From Chitinophagaceae bacterium (GTDB taxonomy: Bacteria; Bacteroidota; Bacteroidia; Chitinophagales; Chitinophagaceae): a stretch of DNA of 64,000 nucleotides. The stretch's first letter is position 1. Each line of letters opens with the position of its first letter. Shown here piece by piece: positions 1,041 through 4,256 of this stretch. Location of the stretch: the NCBI GenBank assembly GCA_023957125.1, contig JAMLHL010000001.1, forward strand, positions 186,001 to 250,000, written 5' to 3'. The position numbers were made by a program, and so were the translations under genes. The notes under the pieces are model-generated. The model worked only from the letters and a program-made list of their open reading frames with translations, searched no databases and was not told the DNA's origin.

Positions 1041-1598
1041 ATGAGTTATTACAATTTTCTATTGACTTTATTTATAGTCATTGCGCTGCTTATTATGTTG
1101 GTATTTTATGGGGTTTATCGCTCCTCGATGCGGAAAGGAACGGACACGGAAGGAATGGCCTCGCCTACAAAAAAGAGGTTCATATTTTTTCTGTCGCTGA
1201 CGGTAGTCGTGATCGTTCTGTTGTCGGTTACGATACCCAAATCTCCATATTATAGGTATGCAGACGCTGTGCCTTCCAAAGTGATCTATGCCACTGCGTC
1301 CCAGTTCAGCTTTAATTTATCATCGCAGCCACCCGGGCAAAAGAGAAGCGGGCCCAAAGAAAAGATCGAACTGGCTGCAAATGAATTGGTGGAATTCCGC
1401 GTTGGCAGCGCTGATGTCAATCATGGCTTTGCGATATACAATGATAAGGCCGAACTCATAGCGCAAACGCAGGCTATGCCGGGGTATATCAACAAATTGA
1501 GATGGAAATTCAATCAACCCGGAACGTATAATATTTTATGTATAGAGTATTGCGGTATGTTTCATGAAATCATGAGAACTTCCTTCAATGTAAAATAA
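1041..1598 (+). CDS. CuA-containing heme-copper oxidase-type subunit II
   Basis: A 185-residue membrane-anchored electron-entry subunit. Two hydrophobic helices (about residues 5-26 and 47-66) precede a periplasmic cupredoxin domain. The binuclear CuA site looks complete: H128, then C167, E169, C171, H175 and M178 in the pattern CxExCxxxHxxM. It should pass electrons from a soluble cytochrome c or cupredoxin to the heme protein encoded 13 bp downstream. It is shorter than canonical CoxB and has no fused cytochrome c domain, as in B-type (ba3-like) and CuA-type NO reductase complexes. First gene of an operon with subunit I and Sco. No subunit III or heme O/A synthase gene is nearby. Confidence 0.85.
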   Translation: MSYYNFLLTLFIVIALLIMLVFYGVYRSSMRKGTDTEGMASPTKKRFIFFLSLTVVVIVLLSVTIPKSPYYRYADAVPSKVIYATASQFSFNLSSQPPGQKRSGPKEKIELAANELVEFRVGSADVNHGFAIYNDKAELIAQTQAMPGYINKLRWKFNQPGTYNILCIEYCGMFHEIMRTSFNVK

Positions 1599-1611: not shown

Positions 1612-3054
1612 ATGGCTACATCATCACTAAAAAAGACGACTGCAGTTTGGATCATTCTTATTCTGGCATTATTTGTAATTGCCATTATTTTTGGTATAAT
1701 CATGCGTTTCAACCAGGGTAATAACATTACCATGAACTCCGTTACCTTTTATTCCATCATGACCACGCATGGACTCACAATGGTTGGAATATGGTTTGCA
1801 GCGGGAATGGTCAGTACCAACTATTTGCTTTCCCGCTATGTAAAAGTTTCTACCCGGATCAATATTTTTGCCATGATACTAACTGTGATTGGCGTACTTC
1901 TTTTATGGGGCAGCACTTTTATCGGAAAGTTTCATGCCGCATGGACGTTCTTATATCCCTTGCCCTTCAAGCTTCCCGGAAACACTAATTGGTCCACACC
2001 GCTTTTCTTTCTGGCTTTGACCATCCTTACCATAGGATGGTTGGTGTGGACCATTGATCTTCTTGCACGGATCCTTAAAAATTATTCTGTTAAGCAGGCG
2101 TTTGGCTGGCAGCATCTGAAAAAGAATCCTGCTTCGGAAACGCCTCCGTTTATTATGATTTCAATGGTAACGCTGATTGGGATCCTTGCCTGTTTGATTT
2201 CTGCTGTCATCCTGGTCGTTCTGTTTTTTGCAGAATATTTTTCGGGAGGTAGTTTTAAGAATGATCCCCTGCTTGTTAAAAATATTACGTATTTCTTCGG
2301 CCATACTATAATTAATGAAGCGTTATATCTGGGCTTAGCGGCTTTATATGAATTGTTTCCGGAGATCAGCGGCCGCCCCCGGTTTAAAAATACATGGTAT
2401 GTGGCGCTGGCCTGGAATTGTACCATGGTGTTTGTGTTGACCGCTTTCTTCCATCATTTGTACATGGATTTTGTGCAGCCGCAAGGGTTTCAATTAGTAG
2501 GACAGTTGGCCTCTTACTTTTCAAGTCTTCCTGCTGCTGCGGTCAGCGCCTTTAGTGTTATCGTGGTGGTGTATCGAAACCGGATCCAATGGTCTATGCC
2601 CAACCTGTTGTTTTTCCTTGGGGTGATGGGTTGGCTGATCGGAGGCATAGGAGCTGTTATAGACGCTACGATTTCCAATAACTTTATTTTACATAATACG
2701 CTTTGGGTTCCCGCACATTTCCACACCTACAATGCTTTGGGAAATGTTTTCTTCAGTTTAGCCTTTTTTATATGGGTTGCCAATGAGTTTTCCAATCAAC
2801 ACGGGAAAGGTAAAGCCGATGCTATTAAACTGCTGTTATTGCTGTTGGGCGGTTTGGGTTTGGTGATGATGTTTTATATTGCAGGCGCCGACTCGGTGCC
2901 CAGAAGATTTGCGGTGTATCCGAAAGAGTTTACTTCGGCAGCCGTATTGGCTTCGGCAGGCGCCTGGTTTGCAATTGTGTATCTTTTAGGCGTATTGTGG
3001 TTATTGATCAATATCGTAAAAAAATGTACAAAAGCATTTTCACCGGCGTCTTAG
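1612..3054 (+). CDS. Heme-copper oxidase superfamily subunit I, ba3-like, lacking the active-site Tyr (candidate NO reductase)
   Basis: A 480-residue protein with about 12 hydrophobic helices. Low-spin heme ligands are H53 (TTHGLTM) and H371. The high-spin heme ligand is H369 (WVPAHFH). CuB-type ligands are H231 and H281/H282 (FFHHLYMDF). Motifs GGIGAVID, HNTLWVPAHFH and DSVPRRF resemble B-type (Thermus ba3) oxidases. In O2-reducing A- and B-type enzymes the first CuB His is followed at +4 by the cross-linked Tyr (HPxVY). Here the sequence is HTIINEALY, with Asn at 235 and Glu at 236. The alternative Tyr of cbb3 oxidases, seven residues before the second His of the HH pair, is also missing (V275). 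Loss of this Tyr is typical of nitric oxide reductases. The activity is therefore uncertain: an NO reductase is as plausible as an oxidase. Encoded between its CuA subunit and a Sco chaperone. Confidence 0.85.
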   Translation: MATSSLKKTTAVWIILILALFVIAIIFGIIMRFNQGNNITMNSVTFYSIMTTHGLTMVGIWFAAGMVSTNYLLSRYVKVSTRINIFAMILTVIGVLLLWGSTFIGKFHAAWTFLYPLPFKLPGNTNWSTPLFFLALTILTIGWLVWTIDLLARILKNYSVKQAFGWQHLKKNPASETPPFIMISMVTLIGILACLISAVILVVLFFAEYFSGGSFKNDPLLVKNITYFFGHTIINEALYLGLAALYELFPEISGRPRFKNTWYVALAWNCTMVFVLTAFFHHLYMDFVQPQGFQLVGQLASYFSSLPAAAVSAFSVIVVVYRNRIQWSMPNLLFFLGVMGWLIGGIGAVIDATISNNFILHNTLWVPAHFHTYNALGNVFFSLAFFIWVANEFSNQHGKGKADAIKLLLLLLGGLGLVMMFYIAGADSVPRRFAVYPKEFTSAAVLASAGAWFAIVYLLGVLWLLINIVKKCTKAFSPAS

Positions 3055-3779
3055 TTTTACTGGTGAACGGCGCTTTTGCGCAGTCCGGAACAGGGGATTA
3101 TAATTTGTCGGAAGAAACCGCTTTGTACAGGAAGGTCGCTCCGGTTAAAATCATCACGCGGGAGGGGGAGCGGCAACTTCCGGATCTTTACCGGGAATCG
3201 CCACTCATCCTGGCGATGATCTACACCCGGTGTACCGGTATATGCAGCCCCTTGTTGTTGAAACTGGCCGAAAACACCAGGGATGTTTCCGAAAAGGAAA
3301 ACTACAGGATTGCGGTGGTCAGTTTTGACCCGGTTGACAGTTTGCAGGATATGCTCCGTTTGGAAAAATATTTTGGAGACGAGAAAAACAACCGCTGGAC
3401 TTTCGCCGTCACCCCGCAAATTGATTCCCTTATTCAATCAATAGCATTTACTGCCGCCTGGGACAGTATTACCCGGCAGTTTGATCACGAAGCTCTCCTG
3501 GTGGGCATCAACCAGGAGGGCTATGTAGTGAAGAAGCTGACCGGCTTACGGGATAAAAAGGAAGTGGTCTCTTTGATCAGAGAGATCAACGGCGCTTTCG
3601 TTCCCTCGTATCCTTTGCCGGGCAGTGAAACGTTTTTCTCTTGTTTCACTTACAATCCTGCAACTCAGAAAAGACAACCCGCCTGGGGATTGCTGATCCT
3701 GGTAGCGCCGGCGGTACTTACCTTTTTCGTAATAGGCGCCGTGGCGCTGAAATACCGCCGGAAACGGCAGGTTGGCTAA
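3024..3779 (+). CDS. SCO1/SenC-type copper chaperone, membrane-anchored
   Basis: A thioredoxin-fold protein that loads copper into CuA centres. The ATG at 3024 overlaps the end of subunit I by 31 bp and gives a clean signal peptide (MYKSIFTGVLVLLVNGAFAQ); the longer frame from 2997 adds an implausible charged N-terminus. Copper ligands are visible: CTGICSP (CxxxC) in the first third and a His in QFDHEALL later. Unusually for the family, a C-terminal hydrophobic segment (WGLLILVAPAVLTFFVIG) followed by RRKRQ forms a second anchor. Its place directly after the CuA subunit and subunit I fits a dedicated CuA maturation role. Confidence 0.85.
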   Translation: MYKSIFTGVLVLLVNGAFAQSGTGDYNLSEETALYRKVAPVKIITREGERQLPDLYRESPLILAMIYTRCTGICSPLLLKLAENTRDVSEKENYRIAVVSFDPVDSLQDMLRLEKYFGDEKNNRWTFAVTPQIDSLIQSIAFTAAWDSITRQFDHEALLVGINQEGYVVKKLTGLRDKKEVVSLIREINGAFVPSYPLPGSETFFSCFTYNPATQKRQPAWGLLILVAPAVLTFFVIGAVALKYRRKRQVG

Positions 3780-3989: not shown

Positions 3990-4256
3990 CCGATGGCTGT
4001 TTTGGGCTTAGATGAAAAAGCCTTATTAAATGACTTAAACTATACCGGGTTTGTTTTTGAATCGCAGGTTATTCACGACCCGCGTATTTATGCCCGGGCC
4101 AATGATGCCAAAGTATTTCATTATCGTGATTCAAATAACCTGGAAATAGATGCTATTGTTCAGAAATACAATGGTGAATGGATGGCTTTTGAAGTAAAAT
4201 TGGGAACCGGACAGATAGAAGAAGCATCTCCCTTTTTGGTGATTTGTGAAAATTGA
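3990..4256 (+). pseudogene. Relic of a DUF4143 (AAA-type) ATPase, C-terminal part
   Basis: An open stretch of about 87 codons matches the C-terminal nuclease-like part of DUF4143 ATPases: DEKALLNDLNYTGFVFES, then YRDSNNLEIDAIVQ and EWMAFEVKLG (the E/D..EVK residues of a PD-(D/E)XK-like fold). These proteins normally run to about 400 residues with an N-terminal P-loop. Here no P-loop part exists upstream and the tail ends abruptly (EEASPFLVICEN) where family members continue. Flanking bases 3780-3989 show no coding signal. It is a fragment left by deletion; a translated short protein cannot be excluded. Confidence 0.75.

Follow-up and report, generated by a model that had tools for sequence, protein, structure and literature searches.

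Layout of the operon

The window analysed here is a stretch of 64,000 nucleotides from a Chitinophagaceae bacterium (contig JAMLHL010000001.1, positions 186,001 to 250,000). Close to its start, three genes follow one another on the forward strand. The first (1041–1598) encodes a CuA-bearing, NorS/CoxB-like subunit II of 185 aa (PF00116, 3.6e-7), in which an N-terminal membrane part precedes a periplasmic cupredoxin. Its CuA ligand motif, CIEYCGMFHEIM (residues 167–178, window 1539–1574, forward strand), is complete, and the motif is kept in 71 of 72 clustered subunit II homologues. The second gene (1612–3054) encodes the catalytic heme-copper subunit I, a NorY-like protein of 480 aa identified by PF00115 (COX1, 6.6e-52) and by the trees described below. 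Its frame is open throughout and the gene is intact; the reverse complement of the same interval contains many stops. The third gene (3024–3779; a longer GTG start is possible at 2997) specifies an SCO1/SenC-like CuA assembly protein (PF02630, 4.3e-5) with a C-terminal membrane helix and a CTGIC motif; CxxxC is present in 70 of 72 SCO homologues from the loci of relatives. A preliminary description of this DNA had placed a CuA subunit and Sco alongside subunit I, which the domain and motif matches bear out for both proteins.

The window order of CuA subunit, subunit I and SCO is the norSY-senC order, which has been reported for ammonia oxidisers. We recognised no orf1 equivalent 3' of the operon in the window, no NO-related neighbours beside it and no FNR/DNR-like TTGA-N6-TCAA site 5' of it; nor were FNR/DNR-like palindromes in excess across 71 upstream regions. 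Further along the window, a short ORF (3993–4256) resembles by eye the C-terminal portion of a DUF4143-type ATPase and is probably a remnant.

An AlphaFold model of subunit I (pLDDT 87.7, pTM 0.91) has the heme-copper fold. Its best structural matches by Z are A-type oxidases (up to 35.3); slightly lower values were obtained for cbb3 and for a cNOR (4xyd, Z 31.3). Matches to a predicted model of this kind speak to the fold and not to the substrate.

Active-site residues of subunit I

Relatives were collected by a contig scan with YFHHLYQD-like and MHNTLWVP-like patterns, leaving out the 231–236 motif. The best 80 of 442 relatives were kept, and searches of relatives and plasmids added further ones. 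From these we aligned 90 members of one clade with A- and B-type oxidases. Among the matches listed, Bacteroidota account for most of the close relatives (up to 68% identity), and the farther ones come from Ignavibacteriota, Acidobacteriota, Pseudomonadota, Methylomirabilota, Calditrichota, Myxococcota and others.

All six histidine ligands named in the preliminary description are present in subunit I. H53 (codon 1768–1770, forward strand, as for all codons below) is the low-spin heme ligand and is His in 89/89 clade rows with a residue at that place. The first CuB ligand H231 (2302–2304), the remaining CuB ligands H281 and H282 (2452–2457), and the high- and low-spin heme ligands H369 and H371 (2716–2724) are invariant in the clade. 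The motif following the first CuB ligand reads H231-T-I-I-N235-E236, so that Asn does stand at +4 as had been claimed. N235 (2314–2316) stands where oxidases have their cross-linked Tyr: this column is Tyr in 20/20 aligned A- and B-type oxidase rows and in 0/90 clade members, all of which carry Asn. Since the residue is conserved down to ∼ 32% identity, in relatives most of which were found with other peptide stretches, the pattern is not due to chance. E236 (2317–2319) is Glu in 67 rows and Leu, Ile or Ala in the other 23. Y239 (2326–2328), at +8 from H231, is Tyr in all 90 clade rows and Leu in the aligned A- and B-type oxidases.

An A- or B-type oxygen reductase was rejected as an assignment on account of the Asn, rather than Tyr, four residues past the first CuB His. 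A C-type (cbb3) enzyme was rejected because of Val275 on the next helix. This residue stands six positions before H281. At the same distance from the first His of HH, the two cbb3 proteins of the host carry Tyr, and the cbb3-style Tyr is thus missing here as initially described. The eNOR assignment was discarded as well, the Tyr position being Asn and not Gln.

On helix VI, the pattern is HxxxY for oxidases, HxxxExxxE for cNOR and HxxxNxxxY for the window clade. The Glu expected at +4 in cNOR is seen in the host NorB (HYWVE), where the stretch after the first FeB His, HYWVEAVWE, has Glu at both +4 and +8. A profile comparison of the clade with this NorB gave no credible alignment across helix VI, so that the correspondence of the +4 and +8 positions is one of motif register, counted from the conserved His alone. 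Compared with ba3 in the alignment, the clade has lost Tyr at +11, retains the one at +15 (Y246) and has gained another at +8; we take the ba3 residues at +11 and +15 to be K-path residues. Two details are new: Tyr239, which does not vary in the clade and stands where cNOR has its second Glu, and the residues that mark the Glu236 subclade.

Phylogeny and genomic context

For a careful tree, a subset of 26 members from the Asn clade was combined with A-, B- and C-type oxidases and the host cNOR; reference sequences from Nitrosomonas and Bacillus (bNOR) were left out of the trees. In this subset, the Asn clade is split from the A-, B- and C-type oxidases and from cNOR by a branch with 100/100 support. 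The phylogeny suggested in the preliminary description thus places the window protein outside all of these groups, and the accompanying conservation check found N235 invariant in the closest clade. A sister relationship to the B-type oxidases is weakly supported (88/64). The idea that the HxxxNE combination could define a subgroup also held: the 67 Glu236 rows form a single clade (SH-aLRT 100), mainly of Bacteroidota, which Glu236, Asn356, Asn374, Asn378, Trp388 and His168 mark off from the remaining rows (∼ 32–48% identical to the window protein). A limited literature search found no published description of this Bacteroidota-centred subclade.

The protein of Ruegeria (formerly Silicibacter) pomeroyi lies inside the clade and has the Asn, and a Candidatus Methylomirabilis member falls within the Glu236 subclade. 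Three relatives from the host genus (L094, L096 and L097) belong to a different subclade with Ile236, which suggests that the gene was moved or replaced within the genus. Two damaged copies were seen. On a Parasedimentitalea marina plasmid (L001:7875-9331), subunit I is frameshifted into two ORFs and unannotated. In a genome that also has nosZ, an sNOR-like gene (G262 C13:86600-87397) is truncated and interrupted by two in-frame stops, and is likely a decayed copy.

Subunit I is accompanied by a CuA homologue in 72 of 83 loci and by an SCO homologue in 72 of 83, and the order of the three genes is repeated in most of these loci. Within these 83 loci, Rrf2-family regulators lie near the operon in 16, RIC Fe-S cluster repair proteins in 10 (two tested members exceed the TIGR03652 cut-off), formate/nitrite transporters in seven and a nirK-like gene in one (L023). 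In a Ferruginibacter genome, a nirK-like gene and then three other genes precede those for the CuA subunit, subunit I and SCO, after which come Rrf2, two more genes and RIC. In a sample of 395 genomes of the class, full-length nosZ was found in 9/10 carriers vs 119/385 others (p=2e-4) and nirK in 5/10 vs 24/385 (p=3e-4), both by a test that ignores kinship between genomes; the association may stem from a common lifestyle or from kinship. Some sNOR operons have CcoN/NorB-like heme-copper proteins nearby (L039:3731-5074, L048:3730-5076, L011:11282-12664, L060:3-1076, L063:1-1113). These keep HH and the heme His, but the stretch that is QWWYGHNAV in cbb3 reads QWKVNGSLVGAWN or similar in them, so that they seem to lack one CuB His. 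At three loci (L010:1191-2471, L066:3109-4395, L051:3203-4495), a polytopic, His-rich membrane protein of 430 aa, NnrS-like by appearance, precedes first an Fe-S assembly protein (PF01883) and then an Rrf2 regulator, all 5' of the operon; the L066 copy of the NnrS-like protein had no Pfam or NCBIfam match.

The host genome encodes an A-type caa3 oxidase, two cbb3-type proteins, cNOR (NorB, locus L008) and NosZ. NirK was not found in it, and NirS and NrfA gave no convincing match, only weak or partial ones at most. Next to its NO/N2O-reducing genes (cNOR, sNOR-like and NosZ), the host thus has no recognised nitrite reductase. One cbb3-type gene lies ∼ 4 kb from nosZ (C23:71834-73072 and 77186-78997).

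Probable assignment to sNOR and the likely reaction

The Asn of the window protein is also reported for sNOR and for a CuA-type NOR of Bacillus azotoformans. Table A4 of PMC8756737, which follows Hemp and Gennis 2008, lists Asn as the active-site residue of sNOR and names Betaproteobacteria, Silicibacter, Deinococcus and Geobacillus as holders, and a norSY sNOR has been reported for the genus Candidatus Methylomirabilis (PMC8906906). Members of this family (NorSY-SenC; Nitrosomonas, Silicibacter/Ruegeria, Geobacillus, Methylomirabilis) resemble the window in the CuA subunit, the Asn in place of Tyr, the adjoining SCO gene and a short subunit I (∼ 475 aa; 480 aa in the window). The window protein differs in belonging to the Glu236 subclade and is 34% identical to the Ruegeria protein. 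The purified CuA-type NOR of Bacillus azotoformans (bNOR, qCuANOR type I) likewise combines a CuA subunit, a Tyr-to-Asn change and a nearby SCO gene (PMC3475470). Its subunit I is reported to be longer (1707-base gene, 13 helices) and ba3-related; the window protein has 480 aa. A second CuA-type NOR of the same organism also has the Tyr-to-Asn change; its subunit I is short, with twelve helices, and its CuA subunit carries two helices at the N-terminus (PMC3475470).

eNOR is, like the proposed window enzyme, an oxidase-related NOR with a cupredoxin-type second subunit, but in it Gln takes the position of the Tyr (PMC8756737 Table A4). cNOR, represented by the host NorB, shares the NO reductase role proposed here and special residues at +4 and +8 from the first CuB/FeB His, but these are Glu/Glu instead of Asn/Tyr, the partner is a cytochrome c rather than a CuA protein, and it is distant in the tree. 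More generally, cNOR and qNOR have Glu at +4, whereas the window has Asn at +4 and Glu at +5. The ba3-type (B) oxygen reductases are the nearest oxidase group (weak support) and have a short CuA subunit like that of the window, but they carry Tyr at 235, Leu at 239 and a further Tyr at +11 that is lost in the window clade.

We therefore propose, with a probability of approximately 0.78, that these three genes specify a CuA-containing nitric oxide reductase of the sNOR type. Membership is indicated by the presence of Ruegeria (Silicibacter) in the clade, the listing of Silicibacter as a holder of sNOR with Asn, and the norSY-senC order. The preliminary description had proposed a CuA-type NOR such as eNOR, sNOR or nNOR; clade, Asn and gene order support sNOR among these, eNOR having Gln. 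The window protein is thus probably a new member of a family that has been named already. NO reduction would be its likeliest function, because of the neighbours in relatives (Rrf2, RIC, one nirK-like gene), the enrichment of nosZ and nirK among carriers, and the cNOR and NosZ of the host. Counterpoints to this role are that the host has a cNOR already and that the window operon itself shows neither NO-related neighbours nor an FNR/DNR-like site 5' of it.

The Tyr of oxidases provides an extra electron and a proton for splitting O2; as it is absent here, the site is not equipped to reduce O2 by the ordinary four-electron route. In the proposed enzyme, a periplasmic donor would pass electrons in via CuA, from where they would reach the low-spin heme (H53/H371) and then the high-spin heme (H369) and CuB (H231/H281/H282). 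At this heme/CuB pair, two NO would be converted to N2O and water. Since Asn235 and Tyr239 occupy both helix VI places of cNOR's active-site Glu pair, they probably do a similar job in water positioning and proton passage. In the host, the enzyme would clear NO made elsewhere or supply N2O to NosZ. sNOR is given no proton channel in one account (PMC8756737) and, contrary to this, is called electrogenic in another (PMC8906906). The Glu236 subclade, which has extra Asn residues (N356, N374 and N378) close to the heme ligands, may tentatively be seen as a CuA-NOR group with a function of its own. Its residues Asn235, Glu236, Tyr239, N356, N374 and N378 would then form a new proton route, which might make NO reduction energy-conserving; we regard this as conceivable but doubtful.

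The main competing explanation is a high-affinity O2 reductase without the canonical Tyr, in which Tyr239, one helix turn away, would act as a redox-active substitute. The invariance of Tyr239 in the clade, opposite Leu in A- and B-type oxidases, is consistent with this, as are the possible sister relationship to B-type oxidases (88/64, weak) and the induction of Nitrosomonas sNOR under O2 limitation. The latter enzyme may be a high-affinity oxidase, and the choice between the two functions has been left open for sNOR (PMC6967387). However, the +8 residue is also functional in cNOR (Glu) and need not be a Tyr substitute, the genomic context of relatives favours NO, and the host already owns caa3 and two cbb3 oxidases. 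The CuA-NOR of Bacillus, which also carries this Asn, has been purified as an NO reductase (PMC3475470), and we consider an O2 reductase unlikely.

It is less likely still that the window enzyme is not sNOR proper but belongs either to the proposed nNOR or to a CuA-NOR subfamily of its own that is as yet undescribed, with the Glu236 subclade as the core. The six marker residues and the identities of only ∼ 32–48% to the remaining rows do set this subclade apart, but it includes Candidatus Methylomirabilis, whose genus has the reported norSY sNOR, and shares N235/Y239 and the gene order with Ruegeria. That the protein is an ordinary oxidase subunit, either with Asn as a one-off substitution or from a decaying gene, is favoured by the general oxidase fold and nothing more. 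Because N235 is invariant in 90 sequences, the frame is intact and all ligands are kept, we regard this explanation as refuted and a pseudogene as ruled out.

sNOR is a known but biochemically little-tested family that is thought to make N2O from NO and looks like an oxidase without its Tyr. The N235/Y239 pair and the Glu236 subclade offer clear residues for testing the NO versus O2 question. The Ruegeria and Thermomicrobium members of the clade are annotated as cbb3-type cytochrome c oxidase subunit I; with sNOR genes annotated as oxidases, genome surveys can miss N2O-producing capacity. The same name, 'cbb3-type cytochrome c oxidase subunit I', is given in plasmid records to the Asn-type proteins at L002:7905-9335 and L003:7860-9344, whose sequences do not support it.
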